The notes beneath the pieces are model-generated. The model saw only the letters and a program-made list of their open reading frames with translations. It made no database searches and was not told where the DNA came from. This document shows positions 12,840-33,246 of a DNA stretch of 36,688 bases, piece after piece. The stretch comes from Desulfocapsa sp. (lineage in GTDB: Bacteria; Desulfobacterota; Desulfobulbia; Desulfobulbales; Desulfocapsaceae), in assembly GCA_013792135.1 (NCBI GenBank), contig VMSP01000001.1, positions 1-36,688 on the forward strand, read 5' to 3'. Every line of letters starts with the position of its first letter. Positions within the stretch are counted from its first letter, which is position 1. A program made the position numbers and the translations under genes.

Positions 12840-13649
12840 CTAGTGCTGTGAACCTATCTCTTCAATTTCGCAGCTGAATAGGTCAACGCTTTTCCAGTTG
12901 TTGACAAGGGGGGAATTAAGGTCAAGAAGGAGTTTTATGGTTTCAGCGACCTGAAGGGAGGCAACCGCAGCGACGGTACAGGAAAGTACCGAAGGGGTGG
13001 TCATCTTATCGTGAAGAGGGATTTTGGGATAAAGGTCTTTGATAAGGGGACTCTCTTTCTGGACGCCAATTTGCCCGAACCATTTCTCCACTGCGCCGTG
13101 CACCAGAGGGATTTGAGATATTTGACAAAATTCTGCCAATTCGTACCGGTCGGCAACGGAGTCAAGGCAATCTATCACAACCTGTGCCTTGCGGACTTCT
13201 TTGTGAATAACGGGTGAGAAAGCGAGGGCAAGTGGCGTTACTTTTGTGGCCGGATTTACCGAGCGGGCGCGCCTGACTGCTGCCTGCACTTTGAACCGGC
13301 CTAACTCCTCGACAGTGCAGAGAAGCTGGCGGTTAAGGTTGTGAGCTGCAAAACTGTCCGGATCAATGGCGATAATTTGTCCGACGCCTAGACGGAGCAG
13401 CTCTTCAAAGACCTGGCCGCCTAATCCTCCGCAGCCGATCAGAGCCACAGTGGAGTTGAGCAATTGGTGTTGTTGGGCTGCTGAAAAAATGTCTTGGTGG
13501 CGCTGGTAACGTTCAGGCCAGATATTATCTGCAAGAGCAGCCTGTTCTACCTCCAGCAGATCAACGTTGCATTGCTCTGCCAGAATAAGGGCGTCGGCAA
13601 ACAGCAGGATATTGTCTTGGCTTTTCTCTCGCAGCCGGTCAACAAGCAT
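12840..13649 (-). CDS. hesA: HesA/MoeB/ThiF-family adenylyltransferase
   Basis: A 269-aa E1-like enzyme. An N-terminal helical extension ends in RYQRHQ (about residues 48-53). The nucleotide-binding Rossmann motif IGCGGLGG (71-78) follows, then NLNRQLL and the VIDCLDS motif, all typical of MoeB/ThiF/HesA. It would adenylate the C-terminal GlyGly of the MoaD-like protein encoded two bases upstream, so that sulfur can be transferred for molybdopterin assembly. The zinc-binding CxxC pairs of classical MoeB are absent, which places it with HesA-type enzymes. The start is two bases after the moaD stop, so the two are coupled. It ends the operon that begins near flx/aor. Confidence 0.9.
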   Translation of the reverse strand: MLVDRLREKSQDNILLFADALILAEQCNVDLLEVEQAALADNIWPERYQRHQDIFSAAQQHQLLNSTVALIGCGGLGGQVFEELLRLGVGQIIAIDPDSFAAHNLNRQLLCTVEELGRFKVQAAVRRARSVNPATKVTPLALAFSPVIHKEVRKAQVVIDCLDSVADRYELAEFCQISQIPLVHGAVEKWFGQIGVQKESPLIKDLYPKIPLHDKMTTPSVLSCTVAAVASLQVAETIKLLLDLNSPLVNNWKSVDLFSCEIEEIGSQH

Positions 13650-13650
13650 A

Positions 13651-13875
13651 TCAGCCCCCGCCGATGACTGGAAAAATAGCCAGATTATCCCCTTCTTTCA
13701 AAAGGGTTTCAAACTGGCAGTGCCTGGAATTTATCATGGTTATGCCGATTTCATCCAGGTTAATCCCCAGTCCTACAATTACTTCAGAAACTGCTGTCGG
13801 TTCGGGGTATTCTCTTTCTTCTACCTTAAAACGACCGTCGCGGAAGAAGGCAAAGAGTTTGACAGTGACCTTCAT
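13651..13875 (-). CDS. moaD: MoaD/ThiS-family sulfur carrier protein
   Basis: A 74-aa beta-grasp protein starting MKVTVKLFAFFRDGRF and ending in EGDNLAIFPVIGGG. The C-terminal GlyGly is the thiocarboxylation site. The placement before a HesA-type E1 and after two moeA genes indicates the small subunit of a molybdopterin synthase, specialised for pterin cofactor assembly in this operon. A ThiS role is less likely since no thiamine genes are present. Its ATG overlaps the stop of a preceding 40-codon frame. Confidence 0.9.
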   Translation of the reverse strand: MKVTVKLFAFFRDGRFKVEEREYPEPTAVSEVIVGLGINLDEIGITMINSRHCQFETLLKEGDNLAIFPVIGGG

Positions 13876-13994
13876 ATCATTTCCTGTATCTGTTCATAAA
13901 TACGTAAGTAAACATAGAGAAAATCATTGCCAGCAGTCAACAAGGCAAGACCCCAACAGGACGATCTCCACAGGCCCTTGGGTAAAATGACCAT
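13872..13994 (-). CDS. possible 40-aa gene between moeA-PBP and moaD
   Basis: A 40-codon frame starts at an ATG (13994) with an AAGGGGG ribosome binding site about 11 bases upstream. It ends in a TGA that overlaps the moaD start (ATGA-type overlap). The gap to the preceding moeA-PBP stop is 27 bases. The peptide begins MVILPKGLWRSSCWG and has an aromatic, weakly hydrophobic centre (NDFLYVYLRIYEQ). It has no recognised homology. The intact coupling at both ends is the reason to list it. It may only be a translated leader. Confidence 0.4.
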   Translation of the reverse strand: MVILPKGLWRSSCWGLALLTAGNDFLYVYLRIYEQIQEMI

Positions 13995-14021
13995 TTTTCA
14001 AAATACCCCCTTGTTTTATGA

Positions 14022-15950
14022 CTATTGTTCGTACATTACCTTGCCGCAATCGCGAAGATCATAGCCGCCGAGACTGAGGACTTTTTCATGGAAATTCCGG
14101 TCATTTCTCAAAAGATCGAGAACGATCCCGACCTTGTTGTCTTCCCGGAATTTCAGGGGGAGGATGAGGTCGTACCGTTCTTCCGTCACCGGAACAAAAT
14201 CAAGATTAAGAGCCACCGCCGCCGCCCGAATTCCCATTCCCGTGTCGACGCTGCCGCCGGCAATGGCAGCCGCAACACTCATATGGGTGTATTCTTCATG
14301 GCTGTATCCTTGGATGGAACCTGGATCAATATCCAGATCACGGAGGATCTTATCTGTGAGCAGACGGGTGCCGGCACCGTTCTGGCGGTTAATAAAAGAA
14401 AGCTTGCGTTCTGCAATATCGGCAAAGCCCTTAATGCCAAGCGGGTTACCTTTCTGGACGATTAACCCTTGTTCCCGGTAGCAAAGATTGATGAGTTGGA
14501 GAGGGACATCGGCCAGAAAACGCTTAATATAGGAAATATTATACTCCCCACTTTCTTCGTCAAGCAGATGGGTTCCGGCAAGATGGGCCTCGCCCCTGCG
14601 GATTGCCATTATGCCGCCCATGGATCCAACATGGGCCGACGAAATTCTGGTGGCAGGGCGTTGTTTGTAAAGCTGATTGGCAATAACATCAAGGATGTTG
14701 TCGTGACTGCCGATAAAGACAAGAGTTGACTCAATCTCTTGGCGGGGGCGGAGCAGTTCAATTTGAACTTTTTCGCCGGCGCCAATGCCTTCACTGCCAG
14801 CAGGAATAGTTAACAGGCCATCGGCCCGGACAAGAGACATCACCGCTCCGGCGCCTTTACCTGAGGGTGTGGCCATAAAGGTATTATCAACCTGGCCCAG
14901 GGTAACTCGTACATATTCATCAACCCCCATGGACGAGGCCAGGGGACGGGACATCAGCGCTTCTATCATCTCTGCTTTCGGAGTGTCCAGGTTCATGAAA
15001 GCATAGACCATGTCGCGGACAAAGAGACGCATGGTAAGAATTGCCGAAACCGGATAGCCAGGCAGGCCGATGACCGGCGTATTGTCGACAATGGCCAGAA
15101 TAACAGGTTTGCCAGGCTTTATAGCCACACCGTGGACAATGACTTCACCCAGTTCCGCCAACACACTTGAGGTGTAATCCCTGGTGCCTGCCGATGCTCC
15201 GGCATTGAGCACTACAATGTCGTTTTCCTGAACGCCTTTTTTAATTGCTTTACGCAGGTGCTCCGGATCATCAATCACCGGTGCCGAACCGCTCGCTTCA
15301 GCACCCCAATCGGTAAGATATCCGGCAAGTATCCTGGAGTTAAACTCGATGATCTGCCCTGGTTTTGCCGCTTGACCAGGTTGGATAAGTTCACTGCCGG
15401 TGGGGATAACCTGGATCTTGGGCGGACGCCGGACCTTGATTGTTGTTACCCCGGTGGCAAGCATGGCCCCCTGGTCAATGGGCCGGACTTTATGTCCTTC
15501 CGGCAGGATGAGCTCGGTGGCGACGATATCTTCACCAATGGTCCGGACATGCTGCCAGGGGGTTGCCGGTATGGCCAGCTCCACTTCCTCATCACTGACG
15601 TAGTGGACGTCTTCAATCATGACAACGGCGTCAAAGCCTTCAGGTAAAGCATTACCGGTGTTTACCGGCATGAATTTACCTTTACCAAGATGCACTGGCG
15701 AGGCTTCGCTTGCCTGGGCCAAATCCGCAAAATGGACGGCGATACCATCCATGGCCGCGGCATTGTATGAGGGTGAGGAATGGATGGCAAAAACCGGCTC
15801 AGCTAGACGATAGCCCAGAGATTTGTCCACAGGGATAGACTGGATGGCTGCCATATTGCTGCCAAACCCGATGCCTTCAAGGGCTTGGAGCCAGAGTTCT
15901 TTGGCCTCGGCCAGGGGATGGTTTTTGACAAAGATATTTCGATTTTTCAT
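14022..15950 (-). CDS. moeA: MoeA fused to a C-terminal PBP-like domain
   Basis: A 642-aa protein. Residues 1 to about 410 are a complete MoeA (molybdopterin molybdenumtransferase): N-terminal domain with AAAMDGIAV (about residues 64-72), the MPT-binding domain with a PTGSELIQPG segment, GASAGTRDY and PGKPVILAIVDNTPVIGLPGYPVSA, and a C-terminal beta-barrel. Residues from about 415 form a periplasmic-binding-protein-like domain (FIGSHDNILDVIANQL, SSAHVGSMGGIMAIRRGEAH, NRQNGAGTRLLTDK), as in PF12727-type fusions. MoeA inserts molybdate or tungstate into adenylylated molybdopterin; the binding-protein-like domain may capture the oxyanion. Its ATG overlaps the stop of the first moeA by four bases. 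Confidence 0.92.
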   Translation of the reverse strand: MKNRNIFVKNHPLAEAKELWLQALEGIGFGSNMAAIQSIPVDKSLGYRLAEPVFAIHSSPSYNAAAMDGIAVHFADLAQASEASPVHLGKGKFMPVNTGNALPEGFDAVVMIEDVHYVSDEEVELAIPATPWQHVRTIGEDIVATELILPEGHKVRPIDQGAMLATGVTTIKVRRPPKIQVIPTGSELIQPGQAAKPGQIIEFNSRILAGYLTDWGAEASGSAPVIDDPEHLRKAIKKGVQENDIVVLNAGASAGTRDYTSSVLAELGEVIVHGVAIKPGKPVILAIVDNTPVIGLPGYPVSAILTMRLFVRDMVYAFMNLDTPKAEMIEALMSRPLASSMGVDEYVRVTLGQVDNTFMATPSGKGAGAVMSLVRADGLLTIPAGSEGIGAGEKVQIELLRPRQEIESTLVFIGSHDNILDVIANQLYKQRPATRISSAHVGSMGGIMAIRRGEAHLAGTHLLDEESGEYNISYIKRFLADVPLQLINLCYREQGLIVQKGNPLGIKGFADIAERKLSFINRQNGAGTRLLTDKILRDLDIDPGSIQGYSHEEYTHMSVAAAIAGGSVDTGMGIRAAAVALNLDFVPVTEERYDLILPLKFREDNKVGIVLDLLRNDRNFHEKVLSLGGYDLRDCGKVMYEQ

Positions 15951-17218
15951 TGTAATAGGTGCACCCTTACTTCAGAATTTTTTTCCAGCCCCTGTGAACT
16001 TTCATCGATGAAAAAGTAGCCATGGGCTCTGGACAGGGTTGATATGGAGCCTGACTTGCCCAGGACCGGTTGGGCCATCAGAACGCCGTTTTCCTCGTGC
16101 AGACGGACGCGAACCAGATCAAGGCGACCGGCAGCGGAGTTGATATTTCTTTCGAGTACAGCTTTGATGGTTGGTTGCGGAAGTTTCTTGTCTTTTTTAT
16201 GGCCGGACAAGAGATCTATTGCCGGTTCAACAAAAAGTTCGAAACAGACCATGGCCGAAACAGGATGCCCGGGTAGGCCAAAGAGAGGCGTGTCGTTGTG
16301 AAGACCTATAATGATCGGTTTGCCCGGTTTTAAGGTGACACCATGGACAAGGATTCCAGGGTTGCCGAGCCGTTCAATGATTTTTTCACCAAGATCACGC
16401 ATCCCCACAGAGCTACCGCCTGAAAAGAGGACAATGTCGTTGTTCTTGATCGCTTTGAGCATTGTCGGAAAAAAATCCTCTTCCCGGTCCGAGACGATGC
16501 CGTAATCTATCACCTTGGCGCCTGCCCGTCTGGCAAGGCCTGTCAGGGTGATATTGTTGATGTCACGGATTTTACCGGCAGGGGGATTTTCGGACCAGTG
16601 GACAATTTCATCACCGGTGGAAAGTATGCCTACTTTCACCTGTCTGTAGACCTCAATCTCACCGATGCCCAAGCCGGCAAGCAGCCCGAGATCCTGCGGC
16701 CGTATCCGATGGCCGGCGGCAAGAGCGACACTTCCTTTGCTGATATCTTCACCCTTATCAATGAGGTTTGTGCCGGCGCCAACACTTTTAACAAGCTCGA
16801 TCATCTTGTCGTCAACCGGGATGGTATGCTCCAGCATGACCACAGCATCACTGCCGACCGGTAAGAGGCCGCCGGTGGATATGCGGAAACAATGGCCCTG
16901 CTCTACCTTTCCCAGCGGATTCTCGCCCATAAACACTTCGCCGCTCAACTGAAGATAGCATGGCATGGACTGGCTGGCGCCAAAGGTGTCTGCCGCTTTT
17001 ACTGCAAATCCGTCCATGGTAGACCGGGCATGGGCCGGAAGATCTTCCGGGGAAAAAATATCCTTGGCCGTTATACGATCAAGGGCTTCATCCAGGAAAA
17101 TACGCTCAGACGGCCTCTGGATATTTTGCAGGTTGCCGGTGAGAAGAGAAAGAGCTTCATGCACCGGGGTCAGACGCTGCCTTCCCAACATATCTTTTGT
17201 TTTATCAGGTGCTGACAT
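15947..17218 (-). CDS. moeA: MoeA molybdopterin molybdenum/tungsten transferase
   Basis: A 423-aa protein of standard MoeA length. It has the substrate-handling segments ARSTMDGFAVKA (about residues 64-75), the MPT-binding STGDEIVHW, SGGSSVGMRDLGEK and LKPGKPIIIGLHNDTPLFGLPGHPVSAMVCFE, and a C-terminal domain. It overlaps the end of the upstream 205-aa gene by 14 bases and the start of the second, PBP-fused moeA. Two different MoeA types in tandem next to an AOR gene suggest that one is dedicated to tungsten and the other to molybdenum or to the AOR cofactor; the sequence alone does not say which. It works in the cytoplasm with MoaD/HesA products. Confidence 0.93.
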   Translation of the reverse strand: MSAPDKTKDMLGRQRLTPVHEALSLLTGNLQNIQRPSERIFLDEALDRITAKDIFSPEDLPAHARSTMDGFAVKAADTFGASQSMPCYLQLSGEVFMGENPLGKVEQGHCFRISTGGLLPVGSDAVVMLEHTIPVDDKMIELVKSVGAGTNLIDKGEDISKGSVALAAGHRIRPQDLGLLAGLGIGEIEVYRQVKVGILSTGDEIVHWSENPPAGKIRDINNITLTGLARRAGAKVIDYGIVSDREEDFFPTMLKAIKNNDIVLFSGGSSVGMRDLGEKIIERLGNPGILVHGVTLKPGKPIIIGLHNDTPLFGLPGHPVSAMVCFELFVEPAIDLLSGHKKDKKLPQPTIKAVLERNINSAAGRLDLVRVRLHEENGVLMAQPVLGKSGSISTLSRAHGYFFIDESSQGLEKNSEVRVHLLQ

Positions 17219-17822
17219 GATCTTCTTGAATCCTCAAAAAAACGGTTTCCGATGAGTGAAGAATACTACCCAGGTCATCAAGGCCAACGGGTGTATCATC
17301 ACAATGCAGGGACAGGAGATGAGAAAACAGGTGCCGGCGGTAGTTAATGAATTTTAAAACGCTCTCACTTTTCATTAAACAGCCGTTATGAAAAATAGTT
17401 CCACCTCTTTCGGTGGCAATGATATTGAAAAATTTCAGCCTGATTGTAATTTTTTCGGTGCTCGGTAACTTGTCTGCCAAAGAGTCAGAGGTCGAGGTCC
17501 TTAAGGCTGCATGGAAGCTGTTTTTTCGAAAAATTGCCCCAGCAAGCCCAGGCATAACGGCAGAAATAGCAAGAACAGGAGATGGGCCGTTAATTTTTGT
17601 TTCCAGATCATCAACAGGCAGGCCGTTCAGGAAAATCGTTTCTATGCGTTCACGTATATATTGCATAGTAAAACCAGGTAAGGAGGCAAGAAGCTCGCCA
17701 ACAGTGGTTGGTGCACTTCTTGCCTCTAAAATACCGGCCTGCAAAAGGGTGGTATATTTTTTGGTAGTGTCAGCCGGGATAAGGAACTCCAGGCGGGGAA
17801 TATGAGGAGATCTGGTAATCAT
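17205..17822 (-). CDS. unrecognised 205-aa protein in the aor-moeA operon
   Basis: No family was recognised. The protein is cytoplasmic by appearance, with no signal or membrane span. Notable stretches are a basic N-terminus with an Ala/Leu-rich segment (residues about 25-50), the helix FTMQYIRERIETIFLNGLPVDD (about residues 51-72), PSPVLAISAVMPGLAGAIFRKN (about residues 79-100), and a C-terminal His/Cys segment (LFSHLLSLHCDD). It overlaps the moeA start by 14 bases and follows aor by about 230 bases. That position suggests an AOR maturation or pterin-cofactor delivery role. The start ATG has a weak ribosome binding site. It is real by virtue of length and tight operon fit; its function is open. 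Confidence 0.75.
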   Translation of the reverse strand: MITRSPHIPRLEFLIPADTTKKYTTLLQAGILEARSAPTTVGELLASLPGFTMQYIRERIETIFLNGLPVDDLETKINGPSPVLAISAVMPGLAGAIFRKNSFHAALRTSTSDSLADKLPSTEKITIRLKFFNIIATERGGTIFHNGCLMKSESVLKFINYRRHLFSHLLSLHCDDTPVGLDDLGSILHSSETVFLRIQEDHVST

Positions 17823-17867
17823 AATGAGAGTATTGCACAGATTGTTAAACTGTACAACTTGAAAAAG

Positions 17868-17937: not shown

Positions 17938-17955
17938 GCTATGAAAATCTGTTTA

Positions 17956-18042
17956 GGGGCCGTTAAGAAATAACTTGGACTTTTTATTCATTTCTTTACG
18001 GCCCCTTATGCCGTTTTTGAAGCAAAAAAGTCCAAGTTATTT
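17956..18042. repeat. two interleaved inverted repeats (A-B-A'-B') between aor and the 205-aa gene
   Basis: Arm A GGGGCCGTTAAGAAAT (17956-17971) pairs with A' ATTTCTTTACGGCCCC (17990-18005) with one mismatch. Arm B AAATAACTTGGACTTTTT (17968-17985) pairs exactly with B' AAAAAGTCCAAGTTATTT (18025-18042). A and B overlap by four bases, and the two pairs are interleaved, so both stems cannot form simply. They would be mutually exclusive or form a pseudoknot. It lies 13 bases after the aor stop on minus. It could be a switchable terminator, a structured leader, or a mobile palindromic unit. Confidence 0.75.
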
Positions 18043-18054
18043 ATTTAAGACGGC

Positions 18055-19782
18055 TTAGAAATTCCAAAAGGTATCGATCTCTTCGCCGCTGAAATCCCAG
18101 ACCACGTTATGGGGAGGAAGAGGCTCAACGCTGAAAAAATCAGGCAGCCTGTCATCCTGGTTGGTAAATCCGGCCGCCAGGTTAAAGGCATGCTCTGTTT
18201 TAAGAATGGATTTGCCAAGATTGACCACATCATCTCCGGTCAATTCAATACCGTAACAGGCATTGAGGAGATCAATAAGGGCCGGAAGACAGGTTGCATC
18301 GTCAAGTGCAGCAAAGGCAATAAAAAGACACATGCCTGTTGAATCGATGGCAGCCGTTGCAATCTGCAGGTTGCGGGAAAGTTCTACCTGTCCTTCTTTG
18401 GAAAGTGGATCAAGGGAGCCGCCGACACCGAGAATATTGGTGGCAATGGTATAGCCCATTGTATGATCCGCTCCCTGGGTGGATGTGGAGTACGTGATAC
18501 CCATACCTTTTATGGCGCGGGGATCATAGGCAGGAATTGCCTGGTTTTTAACGACCGGCACCCGGGTAACGCCGTAGGCGCGGCCGACATCACCGGCACC
18601 GCCGCCGATTATACGACCAAGACCGGTTCCTTTGGCAACTTCTTCTGTCAGGATGCGCAACAGGCCTTCACCGTCACCAAACTCAAGAACTCCTGCCTCC
18701 ATGGCAATGCCGATGGCAACGGCTGTTTCAATGGAATCGATGCCGATATCATCTAGAAGGTGATCCGCTTCGGCAATTTGGTCCAAGTTGTCAATTTCAC
18801 AGTCGGCGCCCAGAGCCCAAATTGATTCATATTCAAAACCTGATGTCTTATATTTGTTTTTAACATCATTATAAATCTGAGAACATTGAATAACACAACC
18901 TGCGTGACAGTTATGTTTCACCTTGCCGCCGCGCTCTTGAATAAGATCGTGCATTGTTTCACCGGAAATTTGCTCATGGCCTGCAAATTGACCGGAGGTG
19001 AAGTTTCTGGTGGGCAGGCCTCCAGATTCATTGATAATGTTGACAAGAACGTTGGTGCCGTATGTTCCAAGGGCCTGGCTGACAGGGTGATCGATAAGGG
19101 CTTTAGCAAATGCCTTGTTGGCTACCCGGAATTTGTCCATATCGGCAACTTCAACTTTGCCGTCTTTGGGGTCAATACTGATAAATTTTACTCGTTTTGA
19201 TCCCATTACGGCGCCAAGACCACCGCGTCCGCCGGAACGCAGATTGCCATCAGGGTCTTTTACTGAAATATTGGCGGATCTCATTTTCATTTCACCGGCA
19301 GGACCAATGATGATAATTCCTTGCTTTGCGGTAAGACGTTTGTCAAGAATTTCAATCGCGGCGAAATTTCCTTTACCGATAACTTCTTTTTCCCTTTTTA
19401 TGGTCACACCGTCGGGGGTAACAGCCAGGCTGTACCACGCATCATCTTTTGGTTGGCCTTCGATGATAAGAGCTTTGCATCCACATTTTGCCAGCAACTG
19501 TGCTGATGTGCCACCGGAATTAGACTCTTTAATGGTACCGGTTAAAGGGCTTTTTGCGCCGCAGGAAAGGCGACCGGAGTTTGCCGCCGGAGTACCGGAA
19601 AGCAGGCCGGGTGCAAAAATAAGCTTGTTGTTTGCTCCCAAGGGATGGCAGGTGGGAGGGACTTCCGCCGCAACAATTGTTGAGGTGAGTCCGCGGCCAC
19701 CATGACCAGCCCAGGCAGCAGGGACCTCTTCGATGGAGGTTGAAAGATCTGACATGTTGACCCGAAAAATTTTAGCAGCCAT
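18055..19782 (-). CDS. aor: tungsten-type aldehyde:ferredoxin oxidoreductase
   Basis: A 575-aa protein of typical AOR length. It oxidises aldehydes to carboxylic acids with a bis-pterin tungsten (or molybdenum) cofactor and one 4Fe-4S cluster. The N-terminal domain has NKLIFAPGLLSGTPA (about residues 52-66) and SNSGGTSAQLL. The cluster ligands are Cys292, Cys296 and Cys300 (CHAGCVIQC), and Cys485 is the likely fourth. Pterin contacts are expected near GGRGGLGAVMGSK (residues 184-196). The ATG at 19782 is chosen because AAGGAG lies seven bases upstream; a longer frame to 19848 lacks it. It follows flxA by 151 bases, in the same direction as the Flx-Hdr genes and moeA. It would supply reduced ferredoxin to the Flx-Hdr complex. 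Confidence 0.94.
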   Translation of the reverse strand: MAAKIFRVNMSDLSTSIEEVPAAWAGHGGRGLTSTIVAAEVPPTCHPLGANNKLIFAPGLLSGTPAANSGRLSCGAKSPLTGTIKESNSGGTSAQLLAKCGCKALIIEGQPKDDAWYSLAVTPDGVTIKREKEVIGKGNFAAIEILDKRLTAKQGIIIIGPAGEMKMRSANISVKDPDGNLRSGGRGGLGAVMGSKRVKFISIDPKDGKVEVADMDKFRVANKAFAKALIDHPVSQALGTYGTNVLVNIINESGGLPTRNFTSGQFAGHEQISGETMHDLIQERGGKVKHNCHAGCVIQCSQIYNDVKNKYKTSGFEYESIWALGADCEIDNLDQIAEADHLLDDIGIDSIETAVAIGIAMEAGVLEFGDGEGLLRILTEEVAKGTGLGRIIGGGAGDVGRAYGVTRVPVVKNQAIPAYDPRAIKGMGITYSTSTQGADHTMGYTIATNILGVGGSLDPLSKEGQVELSRNLQIATAAIDSTGMCLFIAFAALDDATCLPALIDLLNACYGIELTGDDVVNLGKSILKTEHAFNLAAGFTNQDDRLPDFFSVEPLPPHNVVWDFSGEEIDTFWNF

Positions 19783-19933: not shown

Positions 19934-20767
19934 CTACAACTCGTTGGGTAGTTCTTTGAGCTGGGCGGCAGTAAAAACCGGTCCGTCCATGCACACATAG
20001 CTTGAGCCAATATTGCAGCGTCCGCAGATTCCAACCCCGCACTTCATTCGTTTTTCCAGGGTAGTGACAATCTGTTCATCTTTAAAACCAAGTTTTTCCA
20101 AGGCCTGCAGGGTGAATTTTATCATAATTGGCGGGCCACAGGTAACGGCTACACAATTCTCCGAGCTTGGTGCTATATCCAGTAAAACATTGGGGATAAG
20201 GCCCACGGTATGCTGCCACCCTTCATACTTGGCATCAATGGTCAAGTGTGTCTCAAGATCTTCACGTTCTAACCAGGATTGTAGTTCATAATTGAAGGCC
20301 ATGTCAACCGGTGATCGTGCTCCGTAGAGCAGGGTGATCTTGCCATAATCTTTTCTGTTGTCGAGCATGTACAACATCAGGGGGCGCAGCGGTGCCATGC
20401 CGATACCGCCGCCGATGAAGACAATGTCCTTGCCCTTCATGTCCTCATAAGGGAAAAAGTTGCCAAGGGGGGCACGGACGCCTATCTGGTCGCCTTCACT
20501 GAGGCTATGCAGTTTGCTCGTTACCTCACCGGTACGCATGACACTGAACTGTAAATAGTCCTTGCGGGTGGGGGGAGAATTAATGACAAAGGTGGCCTCG
20601 CCGGTGCCAAAGGAAGAAAGCTGCCCCACCTGGCCCGGTTGGAAAGTAAAATTTTCCATGACCTGTGGGTCGTTAAAGGTTACCCGGAAGGTCATGATAT
20701 TATGTGTTTCCTGAATGACTTCATTGATTGTCGCCATTTCCGGAAGATAGTGATTTTTGTCCTTCAT
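19934..20767 (-). CDS. flxA: FlxA, FAD/NAD-binding subunit of the Flx-Hdr complex
   Basis: A 277-aa ferredoxin-NADP reductase-like subunit. The FAD domain is residues 10-105, with a VINSPP motif at 61-66. The NAD-binding domain follows, with VFIGGGIGMAPLRPLM (116-131). A C-terminal 2Fe-2S motif uses Cys243, Cys248, Cys251 and Cys259. It is like the gamma subunit of sulfhydrogenases. In the FlxABCD-HdrABC system described in Desulfovibrio vulgaris, this subunit oxidises NADH. The ATG at 20767 has AAGGAG just upstream and lies four bases after the flxB stop; the longer frame to 20797 overlaps flxB without a ribosome site. It is the last flx gene before aor. Confidence 0.9.
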   Translation of the reverse strand: MKDKNHYLPEMATINEVIQETHNIMTFRVTFNDPQVMENFTFQPGQVGQLSSFGTGEATFVINSPPTRKDYLQFSVMRTGEVTSKLHSLSEGDQIGVRAPLGNFFPYEDMKGKDIVFIGGGIGMAPLRPLMLYMLDNRKDYGKITLLYGARSPVDMAFNYELQSWLEREDLETHLTIDAKYEGWQHTVGLIPNVLLDIAPSSENCVAVTCGPPIMIKFTLQALEKLGFKDEQIVTTLEKRMKCGVGICGRCNIGSSYVCMDGPVFTAAQLKELPNEL

Positions 20768-20771
20768 CTGC

Positions 20772-21833
20772 TTACTCCTTGCCAATGGCCGGCTCATGAT
20801 TTATGGCCTCTTGAACTATTTCACGGATATCGATACCCACCGGACAACTCTTTATGCATCGGCCGCAACCGCAGCAGGAGATAACCCCGTCATGGATGGC
20901 TGGATAGTAGCTGAACTTGTGGCCTACGCGGTTTTTCAGCCTGTGGGCTTTGGTGGGCCGAGGATTATGGCCGCTTGCCTCCATGGTGAACTGGGCTGAC
21001 ATGCAGTTGTCCCAGGATCTGAAACGAGTACCTTTCATGCCTGTTGTTTCGTCGGTGATGTTGAAACAGTAACATGAGGGACAGAGATAGGTACAGGCGC
21101 CGCAGCTGAGACATTTTGCGGCGGCGTTTTCCCAGAATTCCATATTGTCAAAGACGTCGAGGAGTTTCTGTGGGGCCTGGGACAGATCCGGAGCATTGGC
21201 CAAGAATCCAGCCGCGTTTTCATGGACGTCTTTGACTTCCAATATCCATCTTTCGCCATTTTCAAGAAGGCTTGAGGTCAGAAGTTTTTGGCCTTTTTCG
21301 GAAAACGGTTCAAGCACATAACCGTCTTCAATCGGGGTGGCCAGGACATCAGAACCGCTGGCGTCGGAGGGGCTGCTGTCCACCCAATGACAAAAACAGG
21401 TAGTTTCCGGTTTCTCGCAGGCCAAGGTGATAAACGAAGTGTTCTCCCGGCGGGCCTTATAGTAGACATCGGTGGTTTTTTCAGCGAGATAGACCCGGTC
21501 GAACATGGTGAAACCGCGGACGTCACAGGGGCGACTACCAAAGACAACGGTTGTGCCTTTGGGCAGGATTTCCTTGGCCTCAATCAAGATCCTGCTCAAA
21601 TTTTCAGGATCTTTACTGTAGGTGAAATCAACAAGCTTTTCACTCTGGGGAAAAACCGTTTTTTTGGGCGGCATGGTTGCCGCGTGTTTTATAGATATTT
21701 CCTGCTTGGGATCAAAGGGGGCGAAAATTACGGCATCGCCTTCATAACGTGGGGCGAACACCTTATTCTCCCGTGCCAATTCTTCAAGCCAGGACATCAA
21801 ATCAGCTGATTTTAGATATTTAACAGGATCCAT
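20772..21833 (-). CDS. flxB: FlxB, 4Fe-4S subunit of the Flx-Hdr complex
   Basis: A 353-aa protein. The N-terminal domain resembles hydrogenase beta-subunit (HydB-like) proteins, with a SRPCDVRGF segment and CEKPETTCFCHW cysteines. The C-terminal half has two ferredoxin motifs, CLSCGACTYLCPSC and CCGCGRCIKSCPVG, for two 4Fe-4S clusters. It would carry electrons from FlxA to FlxC/D. The ATG at 21833 overlaps the flxC stop (TAATG) and has AGAAGG seven bases upstream. The ATG two codons earlier is not supported. Such subunits are known from FlxABCD of sulfate reducers. It is cytoplasmic. Confidence 0.9.
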   Translation of the reverse strand: MDPVKYLKSADLMSWLEELARENKVFAPRYEGDAVIFAPFDPKQEISIKHAATMPPKKTVFPQSEKLVDFTYSKDPENLSRILIEAKEILPKGTTVVFGSRPCDVRGFTMFDRVYLAEKTTDVYYKARRENTSFITLACEKPETTCFCHWVDSSPSDASGSDVLATPIEDGYVLEPFSEKGQKLLTSSLLENGERWILEVKDVHENAAGFLANAPDLSQAPQKLLDVFDNMEFWENAAAKCLSCGACTYLCPSCYCFNITDETTGMKGTRFRSWDNCMSAQFTMEASGHNPRPTKAHRLKNRVGHKFSYYPAIHDGVISCCGCGRCIKSCPVGIDIREIVQEAINHEPAIGKE

Positions 21834-22834
21834 TACCATACCTTCTCTGTGATATTCTCTTCTTTCATCTTAAAGGAGAGCAGGGGCGGAGTAGCTTCAG
21901 GGTCGACTCCTGCCTCATATTGAAACGTATCCCTGATTTCCTTGTTCATTTTCTGCTTAAACATGAGAACAGGGATATCCACAGGGCAGGCACGCTGACA
22001 TTCACCGCATTCGGTACAGCGTCCTGCCAGATGATAGGCATGGATAACCTGAAACATCAATTTGTCACGAACATTGTTTTCCTGAGATAACCAGTGCGGG
22101 TCACGACTTTCAGCCGCACAATGGTCCCGGCAGACACATAAAGGACAGGCGTTCCGGCAGGCATAACAGCGGATGCAGCGATCAAACTCCTTAAGCCAGT
22201 AGCCGAACCTTTCGGGGACCGAAAGATTTTCAAAGGTTTCTACTGCCGCATAATCGGCATCCTCTTCGCCTTTATTACCTATCTTTTCACCGGCAAAATA
22301 ATCGCTGATAACCGCATCAGGATAGCGACAGGAAGAGCATTTGTCGGCCAGCATTTCTGCCATGGGCAAGGTATATGCTTTGTCCTCAGATTTTATGACA
22401 ATTACCGATTCAGACATATCACAGAATTCGATATTCCCTGTATGGCCGCCCAGGGCCTTCTTGATTTTTGACTGATCCACCACACCGGTGCAGGGGAAAC
22501 CGAATATGGTGATATCTTCCCTGTTGATGAGATTTTCCTGGAGCAGTTCAACCACGGAGCGGCTATCACAGCCCTTGACGACGATTCCTACTTTTTTACC
22601 ACGCAAGCCAGGAAGGTAGGTTGCCAGATTATGAACGCTTAAGGGGCTTATCTCCAGCTTATCTATATCTTCTTCCCTGCGCATAAAATGTGGTGTGGCA
22701 TGCAGGGGATCAAAGCTCCCGCACCAGCCGATGACCACATCCAGCTCAGGCAGGGCCTTTCTGATGTTGTCTTTGAGTTCTTCTTGAAATTTCACCTGGT
22801 CTCCTTTGTTCGACTCAGATCTTGGGTTACCCAT
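21833..22834 (-). CDS. flxC: FlxC, Fe-S subunit of the Flx-Hdr complex
   Basis: A protein of 333 aa if it starts at the TAATG overlap with flxD (22834). An in-frame GTG at 22795 has a better ribosome binding site (AAAGGAG) and would give 320 aa. The N-terminal part is FrhB/CobF-like with GLRGKKVGIVVKGCDSRSV. A cysteine segment follows (CSSCRYPD), then two ferredoxin motifs, CIRCYACRNACPLCVC and CTECGECQRACPVD. It is one of the electron-relay subunits in FlxABCD. It lies between flxD and flxB with overlapping starts on both sides, so it is strongly coupled. Confidence 0.88.
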   Translation of the reverse strand: MGNPRSESNKGDQVKFQEELKDNIRKALPELDVVIGWCGSFDPLHATPHFMRREEDIDKLEISPLSVHNLATYLPGLRGKKVGIVVKGCDSRSVVELLQENLINREDITIFGFPCTGVVDQSKIKKALGGHTGNIEFCDMSESVIVIKSEDKAYTLPMAEMLADKCSSCRYPDAVISDYFAGEKIGNKGEEDADYAAVETFENLSVPERFGYWLKEFDRCIRCYACRNACPLCVCRDHCAAESRDPHWLSQENNVRDKLMFQVIHAYHLAGRCTECGECQRACPVDIPVLMFKQKMNKEIRDTFQYEAGVDPEATPPLLSFKMKEENITEKVW

Positions 22835-23298
22835 TAGAGAGCTGCCTGCATAAGGCTGAGTGTATCCGAGGCTTCCGGTCCTAAAATTTTTGGGGCCGGG
22901 CCGAGTTTGTGAATCTGTTCAGTGAATGAGGTCACCACCTGTTGCCAACGCTGACCTTCAGATGCAGAAACCCAGGTATACTCAAACCGTTCCGGTTCAT
23001 ACCCGATAATGGGGAGAAAATTATGCATTATTTCCAGCCTCCTGCGGGCATAGAAATTGCCTTCTGCATAATGGCAATCCCTGGGATGGCACCCTGAGAC
23101 CAGTACGCCGTCAGCACCATTCATCAACGCCTTCACGACAAACAAGGGGTCAATTCTGCCTGAACAGGGGACCTTGATAATGCGCAGGTCCGTTGGCTGG
23201 TTAAAACGTCCAATTCCAGCGGTGTCGGCACCGCCATATGAACACCAGTTACAGAGAAAACCGACAATACGAAGTTCTTTACCTGTCAAAACTGGCAT
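22834..23298 (-). CDS. flxD: FlxD, MvhD-like Fe-S subunit
   Basis: A 154-aa protein with the MvhD (hydrogenase iron-sulfur subunit) pattern: LCNWCSYGGADTAG (about residues 15-28), VPCSGRIDP, VSGCHPRDCHYAEGN and RRLEIMH. It carries a 2Fe-2S cluster and links the electron input module to HdrA. In methanogens the equivalent MvhD connects a hydrogenase to Hdr. Here no hydrogenase is encoded, and FlxA-C provide the NADH input instead. It overlaps the hdrA stop by 13 bases. This is the point at which the Flx and Hdr halves join in the operon. Confidence 0.92.
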   Translation of the reverse strand: MPVLTGKELRIVGFLCNWCSYGGADTAGIGRFNQPTDLRIIKVPCSGRIDPLFVVKALMNGADGVLVSGCHPRDCHYAEGNFYARRRLEIMHNFLPIIGYEPERFEYTWVSASEGQRWQQVVTSFTEQIHKLGPAPKILGPEASDTLSLMQAAL

Positions 23299-25244
23299 AA
23301 TGCATTCACCTCCGAAAGGATCTGATTGTCAGTGGAATGCTGGAGTTGAATAGCTCCCTGGGGACAGGTTGACGTACAGATACCACAGCCCTGACATATT
23401 GTTTCGATGACATCCGCCTTGACCATACCCCGGAATTCCATTTCCTTGATGGCCCCAAAAGGACAGGTTTGGATACATTTGCCGCATCCTATACAACGCT
23501 TAATATCGACAATTGAAACCTGCGGATCGCTTTCCAGTTGATCCTTGGAAAACAGTCCCAGCACCTTGGCGGCAGCGGCACTGCCCTGTGCCACTGATGA
23601 CGGAATATCCTTGGGTCCCTGGCAGGCACCTGCAAGATAGACACCGGCAGTGTTGGTCTCTACAGGTTTAAGTTTAGGATGGCCTTCCATATAAAAGCCG
23701 TAAGAATCATAGGAAATGCGAAGTTTTTCAGCCAATTCACTTGCCCCGGCAGAAGCTTCAGCACCGACAGCTAAGACAACAAGATCGGCGTCCACTTCGA
23801 CCTGTGATCCCATCAGTGTATCAGCACCGCGGACCAGCAGTTTTTCGCCCTTGGGGTAGATCATGGAGACCCGGCCCCTGATATATTTGGTGTCGTACTC
23901 CTCCATGGCCCGGCGGGTGAATTCATCGTAAAGTTTCCCTACTGCCCGAATATCCATATAGAAGACGTAGCTTTGAGAATCCGGCAGGTGATCTTTGGTC
24001 AAAATCGCCTGTTTGGCGGTATACATGCAGCAAAAACCCGTGCAATAGGGGCGTCCGACAGATTTGTCACGGGAGCCGACGCACTGGATAAAGACGATAT
24101 TTTTTGGTTCTTTGCCGTCTGAGGGACGCTTGATGTGACCGCCGGTGGGGCCGGAGGCTGAAAGCATACGTTCATACTGCAGGCCAGTGATGACGTCGGG
24201 ATAGCGGCCGGCGCCATATTCTCCGTAGACACTCCAGTCAAAAAGATCATACCCGGTGGCTGTGACGATAGCCCCGACCTTTTCGGTGACGAACTCGTCC
24301 TGCATTTCATAATCAATACAGCCGGAAGGGCACACCTTGGCGCAGACCCCGCATTTACCTTTCGTTAGTTTGGTGCAGAAATCGGGGTCAATCTTGGCCT
24401 TCTTGGGTATGGCCTGAGGAAAGGGAATGTTAATGGCCGTTGTTTTGCCGATTCCTTCGTTAAAGTAGTCGGTGGCTTTTTTGCTCGGACATTTTTCCAT
24501 GCAGATTCCGCAGCCCGTGCATGAATCCCAATTAACATAAGTTGCCTTCTTTTTGACCTTGATCTCAAAGTTCCCCACGTAGCCGTTTATTTCTTCAATT
24601 TCTGAATAGGCATAGAGGGTGATATTGGGATGTTGGGCCACATCAACCATGCGCGGCCCGAGGATACAGCTGGAACAGTCCACTGTCGGGAATGTTTTGT
24701 CCAGTTTGGCCATCTTGCCTCCGATGGTGGACGTTTTTTCCACCATCACCACTTCAAGACCGCCGTCTGCACAGTCAAGGGCTGCCTGGATTCCGGCGAC
24801 ACCGCCACCGATAACAAGGACTCTTTTGTTGATATCAAACTTCTTGGAATAGAGGGGCCGGTTACGCAGCAGCTTTTCAGTGGCCATGCGCACAAGGTCA
24901 ACTGATTTGTTGGTGTTGGCCTCGCGATCCTTGCCAATCCAGGAGACATGTTCCCGGATGTTAGCCATCTCAAAGAGATATTTGTTCAATCCGGCCCGTT
25001 CCACGGTGCGACGAAAGGTTTGCTCGTGCATCCGGGGTGTACATGAGGCAACAACAATACCGCCAAGATTATGCTCCTTGATGGCATTAACGATTTCATC
25101 TTGTCCCGGTTCGGAACAGGTGTACATAGTATCCGTTGCAAAGACTACGCCCGGGAATTCTCTGGCAGCGGCAGCTACCGCAGCGGTATCAACCGTAGCC
25201 TCGATATTGCTTCCGCAATGACAGACAAAGACTCCTACTTTCAT
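23286..25244 (-). CDS. hdrA: HdrA, FAD/Fe-S core of heterodisulfide reductase
   Basis: A 652-aa protein with the full HdrA arrangement. An N-terminal Cys region (CHCGSNIEATVD, residues 8-19; CTPRMHEQTFRR) is followed by an FAD-binding VLVIGGGVAGIQAALDC segment (142-158). Internal ferredoxin-like motifs are CTGCGICMEKCP (242-253) and CGVCAKVCPSG (298-308). A second flavin-related part and two C-terminal 4Fe-4S motifs (CIGCGKCIQTCP and CQGCGICTSTCP) follow. HdrA is the site of flavin-based electron bifurcation. It overlaps hdrB by four bases and flxD by 13. It has the length expected for bacterial HdrA. The bifurcating role is known for methanogen HdrABC and inferred here. Confidence 0.95.
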   Translation of the reverse strand: MKVGVFVCHCGSNIEATVDTAAVAAAAREFPGVVFATDTMYTCSEPGQDEIVNAIKEHNLGGIVVASCTPRMHEQTFRRTVERAGLNKYLFEMANIREHVSWIGKDREANTNKSVDLVRMATEKLLRNRPLYSKKFDINKRVLVIGGGVAGIQAALDCADGGLEVVMVEKTSTIGGKMAKLDKTFPTVDCSSCILGPRMVDVAQHPNITLYAYSEIEEINGYVGNFEIKVKKKATYVNWDSCTGCGICMEKCPSKKATDYFNEGIGKTTAINIPFPQAIPKKAKIDPDFCTKLTKGKCGVCAKVCPSGCIDYEMQDEFVTEKVGAIVTATGYDLFDWSVYGEYGAGRYPDVITGLQYERMLSASGPTGGHIKRPSDGKEPKNIVFIQCVGSRDKSVGRPYCTGFCCMYTAKQAILTKDHLPDSQSYVFYMDIRAVGKLYDEFTRRAMEEYDTKYIRGRVSMIYPKGEKLLVRGADTLMGSQVEVDADLVVLAVGAEASAGASELAEKLRISYDSYGFYMEGHPKLKPVETNTAGVYLAGACQGPKDIPSSVAQGSAAAAKVLGLFSKDQLESDPQVSIVDIKRCIGCGKCIQTCPFGAIKEMEFRGMVKADVIETICQGCGICTSTCPQGAIQLQHSTDNQILSEVNALCQF

Positions 25245-26146
25245 GCCGCCTTCTCCTTGATATTTTCTTCGTTCACCATGAAATCCAATAGGGTACGGGG
25301 GCTAACGCAGAGTTTGTTCATGCCCAGTTCCTTTTCCGTCAGGCCCAGAGCCAGACCCAAAAGTTGGGTGAAGTAAAAAATCGGTATTTTATGATGTGAG
25401 CCATTGGCATGGTTTATCTGGTCCTGACGCATATCAAGATTCATCTGACACAGCGGACAAGCAGTAACAAGAGCCATTGCTCCAATGCTTTTAGCCGTGT
25501 CGAGGAGTTTTCCGGATAACCTCATCACCACGTCTTTGCGCGGGATACCAAAGGACGCACCGCAGCATTCGACTTTTAAAGGAAACGGCACCACTGTAGC
25601 GCCCAGGGCTTCCATTATATTGTCCATTGCCATGGGGTGCTCACGATCATCAAATTGCATTAGTTCAGCAGGCCGGTTAAGGATACAGCCGTAATAGGCT
25701 CCCACCACCAGGCCAGTCAGTGGTTTCACCACTTTTTTCCGTATATTTTCGATGCCGTAGTCTTCTACCAGTATCTGCAGTACAGACTTTGTTTCAATTT
25801 TTGTGTTTGCCGGCTTGTCGAGAAGATTGTTAACCTTGTCTCTGAAACCCTCATCTTCCATGCGGTGCTTTGCTGTTTTCAGATTGGCAAGACAACTCGG
25901 ACAGGGGGTTATACAGGAATCCAGACCCATTGAGGCAACCTGATCAAGATTTCGTGCAGAGAGGGCTGATGAGAGAGAGTGATCAACGGTGTGCGCCGGA
26001 GTAGAACCGCAACAGCTCCAATCTGGTACATCGGTCAATTTTATGTCCAAGGCTGCACAGACTGCCCGACTTGACATATCATATTCAATGGATGTTCCAG
26101 TACTTGAACATCCGGGGTAATAAGCGTAGTTCAAAGATGTATTCAT
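25241..26146 (-). CDS. hdrB: HdrB, heterodisulfide reductase subunit B
   Basis: A 301-aa protein with two CCG domains, the ligands of the noncubane 4Fe-4S clusters. The first is YYPGCSS (residues 8-14), WSCCGSTP (about 45-52) and CPSCLAN (about 79-85). The second is GCILNRPAEL, VECCGASFG and CPLCQMN. This is the subunit that cleaves disulfide substrates in HdrABC. In bacteria, the physiological disulfide partner is not known with certainty; DsrC has been suggested in sulfate reducers. It overlaps hdrC by four bases and hdrA by four. No dsrC gene lies in the window. Confidence 0.95.
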   Translation of the reverse strand: MNTSLNYAYYPGCSSTGTSIEYDMSSRAVCAALDIKLTDVPDWSCCGSTPAHTVDHSLSSALSARNLDQVASMGLDSCITPCPSCLANLKTAKHRMEDEGFRDKVNNLLDKPANTKIETKSVLQILVEDYGIENIRKKVVKPLTGLVVGAYYGCILNRPAELMQFDDREHPMAMDNIMEALGATVVPFPLKVECCGASFGIPRKDVVMRLSGKLLDTAKSIGAMALVTACPLCQMNLDMRQDQINHANGSHHKIPIFYFTQLLGLALGLTEKELGMNKLCVSPRTLLDFMVNEENIKEKAA

Positions 26147-26703
26147 CTTGCGGACTCCTCTTTGAAACGCATGAAAATTTTGGCGACCTCTTTCTTGCCC
26201 TGCATTTCAGTAGGCTTGAAATGAATTTTTCCTTTAGGAAGTACTTTGGGACCCAAACCGATATCGGTCCAGAATCTTCCTGTGTGAGATATGTAATTTA
26301 CCAGCAGGCCAACTTCAAAGACCCTGCCGTTGTTTTTTACGGAACTTAGAAAGGAATCCCAAAAGGTCTTGACCCTACCAGTGCCGACATACCCTTCCTT
26401 TCGAGCCATATGACGAAGCACATCCATGATCCGGGCCACATCTATCTGGTTGGGACAACGGGCAGTGCAGGATTCACATGTTGCGCAGAGCCACAGAGAG
26501 TTTGCTTGAAGAACTTGTTCCTTCTGACCTGCCTGAGTGAGTCGCATGATCTGGCTGACTGAAATATCATATTCTTCTGTGTACGGACATCCTGCGGTGC
26601 ATTTTCCGCACTGGTAGCAGTTGTTGAGCTTCTGGCCGCTTTCCTCTTCAACCTGGGTGACAAAATCAGAATTGTAAGACAAATTAATATTGATAACTTT
26701 CAT
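26143..26703 (-). CDS. hdrC: HdrC, heterodisulfide reductase subunit C
   Basis: A 186-aa protein with two 4Fe-4S ferredoxin motifs: CYQCGKCTAGCP (about residues 29-40) and CATCESCTARCP (about residues 72-83). A basic C-terminal region follows (residues 100-186). It carries electrons between HdrA and HdrB. It is the first gene of the hdrCBA-flxDCBA group. About 220 bases separate it from adh, with a hairpin at 26867-26896, so it probably has its own promoter. No sigma-54 or clear sigma-70 site was found in that gap. The start codon has only a modest ribosome binding site. Confidence 0.92.
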   Translation of the reverse strand: MKVININLSYNSDFVTQVEEESGQKLNNCYQCGKCTAGCPYTEEYDISVSQIMRLTQAGQKEQVLQANSLWLCATCESCTARCPNQIDVARIMDVLRHMARKEGYVGTGRVKTFWDSFLSSVKNNGRVFEVGLLVNYISHTGRFWTDIGLGPKVLPKGKIHFKPTEMQGKKEVAKIFMRFKEESAR

Positions 26704-26866
26704 TGTGTTACGAGCCGCCTTTTTGCTGTCGGTTCAGCGTTTCAAGTGTGAAAAATATTTCTTGCCTGGTTGCACTCTTTGTAAAACAAGGGTGGTTCAA
26801 GCGAAGCAGGTAACACCTCACTGGACTTATACCTGACTAACTTGCATAAAAAATAAGGAGCAGGGG

Positions 26867-26896
26867 AGGGTGCAGGCCAAAGCAGGCCTGCACCCT
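26867..26896 (-). terminator. perfect hairpin terminator after adh
   Basis: AGGGTGCAGGCC (26867-26878) pairs exactly with GGCCTGCACCCT (26885-26896) around a 6-base loop, about 25 bases past the adh stop. On the minus strand a T-rich run follows roughly ten bases later. It probably ends a mostly monocistronic adh transcript and separates it from hdrC. Confidence 0.7.
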
Positions 26897-26920
26897 GAAA
26901 AATCTGTTATTGCTTCTTAT

Positions 26921-28102
26921 TTACATAGCTGCTTTGTAAATGGCGATAACATCGGCATCCTTAGGACATCTCGGGTTGGTGAAACCACAGGCGTCCTTCT
27001 GGGCATTGCCAGTCATAATTTCGATGTCTTTTTCCTGGACATCCTTGCCATAGCGTTTTCCTAGGGCAACAAGACCATCAGGAATTCCTACGTCGGAAGA
27101 AAGTTTTTTGATTGCGTCCAGAGCAAGTTCAGCGGCATCGCGAGTAGAAAGTCCCTCAACGTTTTCACCCATAAGCTTGGCAATTTTTACAAAACGATCT
27201 AATTTGGCGATCAGGTTGAATTTCGAAACGTGGGGCAGAAGGATGGCGTTACACTCACCATGGGGCAGGTCATAGAAACCACCAAGCTGATGGGCCATGG
27301 CGTGGACATGACCGAGGCTGGCATTATTGAAAGCCATACCGGCAAGATACTGCGCAAAACACATGCCTTCACGGGCAACGATGTCGCCGCCGTTAGCTAC
27401 TGCGGGGCGCAGATGCTGGGCAATAAGTTCAATGGCTTTTTCAGCTGCGGAATCAGTCATGGGAGTTGCGATGGTTGAAACATAGGCCTCAACGGCATGG
27501 GTCAAGGCATCCATGCCGGTTGCCGCAGTCAGTGCCGGAGGCATACCCATCATCAACAATGGATCATCAAGGGCGATACCAGGGGTGACGCGCCAGTCAA
27601 CGATGGCCATTTTTACTTTGCGGCTGGTGTCGGTAATGATACAGAAACGGGTCATTTCCGAAGCGGTACCGGCAGTGGTGTTAACCGCAACATAAGGAGG
27701 CATCGGCTTGGTAGACTTGTCAACGCCTTCGTAATCATGGATCTTTCCGCCATTGGCGATTACCAGTCCCACACCTTTACCACAGTCGTGTGAACTACCG
27801 CCGCCCAGGGTAATAAGGCTGTCGCATTTGTTATCCTGATAAACCTTTACACCAGCTTCAACGTTTTTGTCGGTGGGATTAGGAATTGTGTCGTCATAGA
27901 CGACGTATTTCATTCCGGCCTCATCGAGGAGATCCGTGATCGTTTTTGTGATACCTGCACCGGTGATACCCTTATCGGTAACGACAAGGGGTTTGCTTCC
28001 GCCGAGTGCCTTGATTTTGGCAGGAATTTCTTTGTGAGCGCCGATACCGATAAGAGTGACGCTGGGAATGAAAAAACCATAGACTTGCTCTCGAACTGCC
28101 AT
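26921..28102 (-). CDS. adh: iron-dependent alcohol dehydrogenase
   Basis: A 393-aa group III alcohol dehydrogenase. The cofactor-binding motif is GGGSSHDCGKG (residues 100-110). The metal ligands are Asp198 and His202 (GMDALTH), His267 and His281. The spacing matches family members such as FucO. It converts ethanol or other alcohols to aldehydes with NAD. The ATG at 28102 is chosen because AAAGGATGG precedes it and the N-terminus fits; the longer frame to 28219 runs through the promoter. A gene like this lies next to flxABCD-hdrABC in Desulfovibrio vulgaris, supporting the ethanol pathway. A sigma-54 promoter lies about 75 bases upstream of the start. Confidence 0.94.
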   Translation of the reverse strand: MAVREQVYGFFIPSVTLIGIGAHKEIPAKIKALGGSKPLVVTDKGITGAGITKTITDLLDEAGMKYVVYDDTIPNPTDKNVEAGVKVYQDNKCDSLITLGGGSSHDCGKGVGLVIANGGKIHDYEGVDKSTKPMPPYVAVNTTAGTASEMTRFCIITDTSRKVKMAIVDWRVTPGIALDDPLLMMGMPPALTAATGMDALTHAVEAYVSTIATPMTDSAAEKAIELIAQHLRPAVANGGDIVAREGMCFAQYLAGMAFNNASLGHVHAMAHQLGGFYDLPHGECNAILLPHVSKFNLIAKLDRFVKIAKLMGENVEGLSTRDAAELALDAIKKLSSDVGIPDGLVALGKRYGKDVQEKDIEIMTGNAQKDACGFTNPRCPKDADVIAIYKAAM

Positions 28103-33213: not shown

Positions 33214-33246
33214 GTTTTTTCCCTCATTATTTCTCATGCCATATTT

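Follow-up and report, generated by a model that had tools for sequence, protein, structure and literature searches.

Does an aldehyde:ferredoxin oxidoreductase (AOR) gene that directly follows genes for an alcohol dehydrogenase, a heterodisulfide reductase (Hdr) and FlxABCD form one alcohol-to-acid pathway with them, and are the enzymes held in one complex or linked by soluble carriers? The question is raised by a locus of Desulfocapsa sp. (assembly GCA_013792135.1, contig VMSP01000001.1), whose genes lie between positions 12840 and 28102 of the 36,688-nucleotide stretch analysed here, called the window below. We regard it as fairly probable that the locus encodes a metabolic module that can convert alcohol to acid reversibly and whose enzymes are linked through soluble carriers they share, rather than bound in a fixed complex. 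An alcohol to aldehyde to acid module with a Flx-Hdr electron splitter had been proposed in a first-pass annotation, and it is supported by protein domains, conserved synteny and the pairing of Adh with AOR in relatives.

The core of this finding is anticipated in print. In ethanol-using Desulfovibrio, aor and a second adh accompany flxABCD-hdrABC and adh1 (PMC6491731; this and the other papers cited were available to us in part, and statements on them refer to those parts). The locus is a variant of that known ethanol system, and our analysis widens the flx-hdr-adh-aor system from Desulfovibrio to the order of the window. The literature searched yielded no paper combining AOR, heterodisulfide reductase and Desulfocapsa. 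The analysis also provides natural tests of the system's parts, in genomes that lack one of the two halves and in a sister species whose locus bears the scar of a deletion, and it points to an unnamed protein family (orfX) widespread beside AORs of the window's class.

Gene order and its recurrence

According to the open reading frame (ORF) list and domain searches, the genes run on the minus strand from 28102 to 12840 in the order adh-hdrC-hdrB-hdrA-flxD-flxC-flxB-flxA-aor-orfX-moeA-moeA/PBP-moaD-hesA:

26921..28102, minus strand: adh, iron-containing alcohol dehydrogenase (PF00465 and PF25137 above cut-off)
26143..26703, minus strand: hdrC, two-cluster [4Fe-4S] subunit (Fer4_8/Fer4_17; TIGR03290 E 1.1e-23, below cut-off)
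25241..26146, minus strand: hdrB (PF02754 in two stretches; cysteine positions)
23286..25244, minus strand: hdrA, FAD and Fe-S subunit (Pfam Fer4 and Pyr_redox_2; NF040770 817.6 bits, cut-off 1100)
22834..23298, minus strand: flxD, MvhD/FlpD type (PF02662 171.1 bits)
21833..22834, minus strand: flxC, Fe-S subunit (Fer4_8, Fer4_9)
20772..21839, minus strand: flxB, HydB-like Fe-S subunit (PF17179 105.9 bits; NF040833 below cut-off)
19934..20797, minus strand: flxA, NAD/FAD-binding subunit (PF00175 and PF10418 above cut-off)
18055..19782, minus strand: aor, single-subunit aldehyde:ferredoxin oxidoreductase (PF02730, PF01314; alignment to solved AORs)
17955..18045, no strand: overlapping inverted repeats in the aor-orfX gap (21 nt at 95% and 17 nt at 94% complementarity)
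17205..17822, minus strand: orfX, 205 aa, no named family (ORF between aor and moeA)
15947..17218, minus strand: moeA (PF03453, PF00994, PF03454)
14022..15950, minus strand: moeA-PBP fusion (NF011068 742.1 bits, cut-off 534; PF12727)
13651..13875, minus strand: moaD, WorX-like sulfur carrier ending GGG (PF02597 40.2 bits)
12840..13649, minus strand: hesA, hesA/thiF/moeB-like adenylyltransferase (PF00899 156 bits)

The ORFs and domains confirmed the contiguous same-strand locus of the first-pass annotation, including the 151 bases between the flxA stop and the aor ATG. The genes that it named were found as well, but it had overlooked orfX. The adh ORF opens at 28219, with its likely start at the ATG at 28102, and the aor ORF opens with TTG at 19848, with an ATG start at 19782. 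Successive overlaps occur throughout hdrC to flxA, and orfX and moeA overlap by 14 bases; gaps of 217 and 232 bases lie between adh and hdrC and between aor and orfX. Since the flxA matches of relatives carry stops at residues 5-7, the true flxA start may be residue 11.

A chance origin of this gene order is unlikely, because the identical order recurs in other genomes. In the AOR scan, from which the best 80 of 146 loci were named, flx genes precede aor on the same strand in 7 (L003-L009). hdrCBA and adh were also seen in L003, L005, L007 and L008, the four of these seven whose contigs reach far enough. In L007 a cysteine-rich 155-aa ORF (L007:8722-9189) lies between flxA and aor. Whether aor is conserved next to flx-hdr, the check suggested in the first-pass annotation, was also examined by scanning 257 genomes from the order with flxC, which gave 20 genomes at E <= 1e-60. 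In eight of the 20 (G000, G007, G008, G009, G019, G125, G200 and G230), aor lies downstream of flxA, and flxC is at least 75% identical in all. With L004 the flxA-aor genomes number nine, several of them being the same contigs as the named loci. The eight coded genomes span four families of the order (f1, f6, f7 and f13). Six of the nine (G000, G007, G008, G009, G200 and G230) have the entire adh-hdrCBA-flxDCBA-aor row on their contig; in G019, G125 and L004 the contig ends inside flx. The matched genes are open; the single stops seen in eight adh, flxA or aor matches are all at residue 36 or earlier, a part in which the position of the start codon is uncertain.

Identity to the window AOR is 90% for that of G200 (family f7), 86-88% for those of genus g4 of the window's own family and 96% for that of G083, which belongs to the window's genus. 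The G200 AOR being closer than that of g4 fits some spread of the row as a unit. A single origin of the flx-linked AOR was not upheld: seven of nine rows (the window, the L002 remnant and L003-L009) form a supported clade, and L008 and L009 fall outside it, near a root set by two long outgroups, a placement compatible both with ancestry and with gain of the linkage.

Module components and known systems

The adh product has the iron-ADH fold of Adh1-type ethanol dehydrogenases. HdrB contains two CCG motifs, C13..C45C46..C82xxC85 and C154..C194C195..C230xxC233; the second holds 34 residues, and the usual spacing is 35-36. HdrA has the FAD and Fe-S domains expected of this subunit, and is presumed to be the site of the bifurcating flavin; the curated model NF040770, whose cut-off it did not reach, is a longer one, with a C-terminus that matches flxD. 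FlxA (NAD- and FeS-binding domains), FlxB, FlxC and FlxD (FlpD) are encoded together as expected of the complex, and 112 of the 120 loci fetched gave matches to all of flxB, flxC and flxD. A disulfide partner of the DsrC type requires two C-terminal cysteines. The genome of the window has one DsrC above cut-off, which ends ..ACKMAGLPKPTGCV and carries both, and DsrC is probably the disulfide used at HdrB.

With these parts, Adh would use NAD+ to oxidise an alcohol (probably ethanol or one of its short homologues) to the aldehyde, with formation of NADH, and AOR would oxidise the aldehyde to the acid with reduction of ferredoxin, the low aldehyde level pulling the Adh step. FlxABCD-HdrABC would oxidise NADH, passing part of the electrons to ferredoxin and part to a disulfide at HdrB, for which DsrC is the likeliest candidate. 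MoeA, MoeA-PBP, MoaD, HesA and probably OrfX would provide the cofactor of AOR and load it into the enzyme. In fermentation the direction of the module could be reversed.

The adh1-hdr-flx system of D. vulgaris Hildenborough is alike in its iron alcohol dehydrogenase, HdrABC and FlxABCD, NADH linkage and DsrC as presumed disulfide (PMC6491731, PMC10084766, PMC10920352), and its locus tags, DVU_2405 down to DVU_2399, give the same adh-hdrCBA-flx order (PMC10920352). In contrast to the window, where FlxC and FlxD are two proteins, FlxCD is one protein there, and Aor (DVU_1559, 97 kDa) is encoded elsewhere by locus tag; the available parts of the text do not mention AOR cofactor genes. In Desulfovibrio L21-Syr-AB and related ethanol users, aor is associated with flxABCD-hdrABC and adh as in the window. 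Their cluster, however, has adh2, a sensor kinase and an NtrC regulator, and moeA-PBP, moaD, hesA and orfX are unmentioned in the available text (PMC6491731). In Solidesulfovibrio fructosivorans, Adh likewise forms NADH, Aor forms reduced ferredoxin and a bifurcating enzyme (Hnd) re-oxidises the carriers, but there the bifurcating role falls to a hydrogenase, and the locus tags of aor and adh are far apart (PMC10084766). An adjacent Adh-AOR pair is also on record (PMC10907483). The Bam class II benzoyl-CoA reductase similarly joins a W subunit of the AOR family to HdrA-like and other electron-transfer subunits; unlike it, the window has no gene for a BamC/WorS-like small subunit.

Separate occurrence of the two halves

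Each half of the locus occurs without the other. In the family of the window, 62 of 93 genomes have AOR at E <= 1e-100, and flxC at 78% identity or more was found in five, all of them among the flxA-aor rows. In the closest relative, G083 (locus L002), which has the same genus code, the hdr-flx half has been lost from the locus. At the scar (L002:9072-10000, contig C16) an adh fragment is joined to a piece of flxA at a shared CCGCAA; flxA has further frame-breaking indels, and hdrCBA-flxDCB are missing. Elsewhere in this genome no flxC was found at E <= 1e-30 and no hdrB at E <= 1e-10, the hdrB search having had no positive control; as G083 is a metagenome-assembled genome, 83% complete, flxC or hdrB elsewhere and misassembly are both conceivable. 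Its aor, orfX, moeA, moeA-PBP, moaD and hesA are all open. Ratios of nonsynonymous to synonymous substitution (dN/dS) between G083 and the window are 0.10 for aor, 0.08 for moeA, 0.07 for moeA-PBP, 0.09 for moaD, 0.24 for hesA and 0.30 for orfX; since the divergence includes time before the deletion, they show retention more than timing. The orfX value, higher than those of the other cassette genes, counts against a strict need for orfX in G083.

Because each half occurs alone and G083 keeps aor after the hdr-flx deletion, AOR, Flx and Hdr probably do not form an obligate complex. A physical union of AOR with the Flx-Hdr complex, a question that the first-pass annotation had raised, was rejected as an obligate unit on this ground; transient contact would be compatible with the gene distributions.

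Several observations weigh against a joint module. G238, G241 and G242 contain adh-hdrCBA-flxDCBA with no AOR match at E <= 1e-40, and AOR is therefore dispensable for the Adh-Flx-Hdr part. In a sample of 395 genomes of the phylum, flxC was matched in 101 genomes at 105 places, and an AOR-like gene (tblastn E <= 1e-4) was found in six of 104 flxC stretches, many of them cut by contig ends. These six are the window, L152 (54% identity, about 6 kb away) and L172, L173, L180 and L198 (29-39%). The flx-aor linkage is real, but with an AOR-like gene at so few flxC places it is lineage-specific. The substrate of Adh is not fixed by the best NCBIfam models (threonine and lactaldehyde types), which stayed below cut-offs. 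Energetics also favour a tighter coupling: at low aldehyde, ferredoxin reduction may need to be coupled to NAD+ reduction (PMC13328260). According to the same source, the aldehyde/acid couple is close to ferredoxin, so AOR alone can reduce ferredoxin.

Such coupling would be provided if AOR docked on HdrA or FlxABCD and passed electrons directly into Flx-Hdr, like BamB in class II benzoyl-CoA reductase. We consider this highly improbable. Adjacency in nine genomes, the repeated proximity of AORs to Hdr clusters of different types and the Bam precedent for joining a W enzyme to Hdr-like subunits speak for it, together with the low-aldehyde energetics. It is opposed by the lone large AOR subunit with no WorS-like gene alongside, by the majority of relatives that have AOR without this flx, by the AOR-free adh-hdr-flx genomes and by the G083 locus, where aor is still constrained; in L007, moreover, the 155-aa gene separates flxA from aor. 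At the other extreme, AOR and its cofactor genes might be an independent aldehyde-detoxification cassette that merely lies behind adh-hdr-flx, as the many relatives with the cassette and without flx and its survival in G083 would allow; the 151- and 232-base gaps could house separate promoters. This is very unlikely, as four family codes of the order share the arrangement and AOR elsewhere has adh and other Hdr clusters among its partners.

The operon might also work mainly in reverse: AOR and Adh would turn acids into alcohols, Flx-Hdr would draw on reduced ferredoxin and DsrC thiols to form NADH, and the operon would serve fermentation or disproportionation as an electron sink. AOR and Adh work in this direction in other organisms (PMC10084766), and a backward Flx-Hdr has been proposed for D. 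vulgaris (PMC10920352, PMC6491731). Nothing in the sequence fixes the direction, but the published flx-hdr-adh-aor case comes from ethanol-using strains (PMC6491731), and we consider a mainly reversed operon unlikely. The carrier-linked, reversible module is preferred to these alternatives.

The AOR class, orfX and other contexts

The window AOR aligned over most of its length, including the active-site regions, to the solved AORs 9mqx, 1aor, 8c0z and 9g7j, and in the same comparison the best AOR scored 317.8 bits and the benzoyl-CoA reductase chain 4z3w 66. It has AFOR_N and AFOR_C domains in a single large subunit, and with flxA and orfX as the neighbours of aor there is no WorS gene beside it, as in Class I of the tungsten oxidoreductases (WOR). 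Alignment to 1aor showed the cysteine, EYES, GADH and DSTGMC segments, with the four cluster cysteines and the conserved Glu and His of the active site. By these features AOR is probably of the tungsten type.

The first two cluster cysteines are x3 apart in the window AOR and x2 in 1aor. The Cx3Cx3C form was found in all 81 AORs of the clade (the window and 80 loci) and in the AOR of L152; the outgroup AORs of L172 and L198 and the four aligned solved AORs have Cx2Cx3C. In PMC13328260, where tungsten oxidoreductases are classified, class I enzymes are likewise single large subunits, and a ThiS-like worX and thiF adjoin CsWOR87; words that start with Flx are absent from its main text. The window differs from that class in its Cx3Cx3C motif and in a second, two-domain partner, orfX.

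orfX gave no match in Pfam, NCBIfam or PHROGs (none in Pfam even at E 0.05). Homologues were found in 39 of 297 genomes of the phylum, 38 of which have AOR at E <= 1e-90, against 138 of the 297 overall (Fisher p 2e-13, a guide only as the genomes are related). In 28 of the 39, the window included, orfX is within 1 kb of an AOR gene, directly after it on the same strand in 23; two more are within 10 kb, and nine are not. The AOR motif was readable at 13 of 20 examined orfX loci and was Cx3Cx3C in all 13. Within the flx-linked group (L002-L009), all 8 loci have orfX and 7 of them have moaD. The MPGLAGAIFR segment is invariant among 23 aligned orfX sequences. The AlphaFold2 model has two domains (mean pLDDT 85.1, pTM 0.79), which from their order of strands and helices are predicted to be ubiquitin-like (beta-grasp). 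MoaD proteins are the top structural rows for residues 23-93 (VIA, Z 4.9 over 68 residues, a modest score). Foldseek with the model gave no match under E 0.001, and hhalign against a local MoaD profile gave a probability of 1.6%. With sequence and profile comparison negative and the fold hint weak, orfX was not accepted as a MoaD homologue. From its linkage, orfX is likely an AOR accessory protein.

The Cx3Cx3C class of AORs and the orfX genes beside them are the new threads of this analysis. Tentatively, and with somewhat less confidence than in the module itself, we propose that the window AOR may belong to a broad, phylum-wide class of tungsten AORs marked by CHxGCxIxC (Cx3Cx3C), with its own maturation or delivery partner in orfX (two fused ubiquitin-like domains and the invariant MPGLAGAIFR), undescribed although no literature search was aimed at it, and that this class became linked here to the ethanol system of Adh and Flx-Hdr, the combination moving as a single unit between families of the order.

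Judged by its family, MoeA would act in metal insertion into the pyranopterin, and NF011068 identifies its neighbour as a MoeA/PBP fusion. MoaD is a carrier of the MoaD/ThiS kind, with a ThiS family match and a C-terminal GG; its GGG end is invariant in 21 of 21 aligned sequences. hesA reached no NCBIfam MoeB/ThiF equivalog cut-off (best TIGR02356, 139.6 of 275.25) and is assignable to the ThiF superfamily. MoaD, MoeB and MoeA have been linked to AOR (PMC1779556), and moaD and a ThiF-like gene beside aor follow that pattern. A full-length separate moeA was unmatched in L003 and L006, neither moeA nor moeA-PBP was matched in L007, L008 and L009, and moaD was unmatched in L007; orfX was matched in all five.

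There is more than one form of association between AORs and Flx-Hdr clusters. adh (at least 55% identity) lies directly before aor, without flx, at 17 of the 80 AOR loci. In L036:9896-19977 and L065:9992-17419, AOR (77% and 75%) and moaD are followed by an HdrC-CCG fusion, a long ORF of which two parts give HdrA-like matches (a double HdrA) and MvhD; after MvhD come MvhG-like and MvhA-like genes in L036 and a HypF gene in L065. AOR genes lie beside HdrA-FlxDCBA clusters in L172, L173, L180 and L198. The Cx2Cx3C AORs of L172 and L198 are also beside HdrC-CCG fusions, and ORFs of similar length and start occupy that place in L173 and L180. Replacement of HdrB by a WOR in L172 and L198 was considered and dropped, as Pfam finds CCG domains fused to the HdrC-like part. 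What these contexts seem to share is an enzyme for aldehydes placed beside electron splitters of the Hdr type, whose input modules are exchangeable. G000 also carries, on contig C140 (L223:7884-15570), a second and divergent cluster, in which HdrA-like matches occur together with FlxDCBA at 33-52% identity to the window's Flx.

The row may be co-transcribed, and the inverted repeats at 17955-18045 are a possible attenuator or processing site. An Rfam search gave no match anywhere in the window, these repeats included, and riboswitch control of the row was dropped. In a site scan, promoter-like sites were in excess (27 against a shuffle mean of 17.4, standard deviation 4.0) and terminator-like sites were not (19 against 17.9, standard deviation 4.2), counts that do not decide whether the 151-base flxA-aor gap is transcribed. 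Upstream of adh (28459-36395), the window contains sensor kinase genes, response-regulator genes and a PstS-like binding protein. Kinase matches (25-33%) were located elsewhere in L003 and L118 and were absent at E <= 1e-10 from 7 of 12 loci tested. A shared regulator upstream of adh is not claimed, identities of 25-33% being ordinary between unrelated kinases. In L105, L117 and L119 the kinase matches lie 0.6-2 kb upstream of adh on the same strand.

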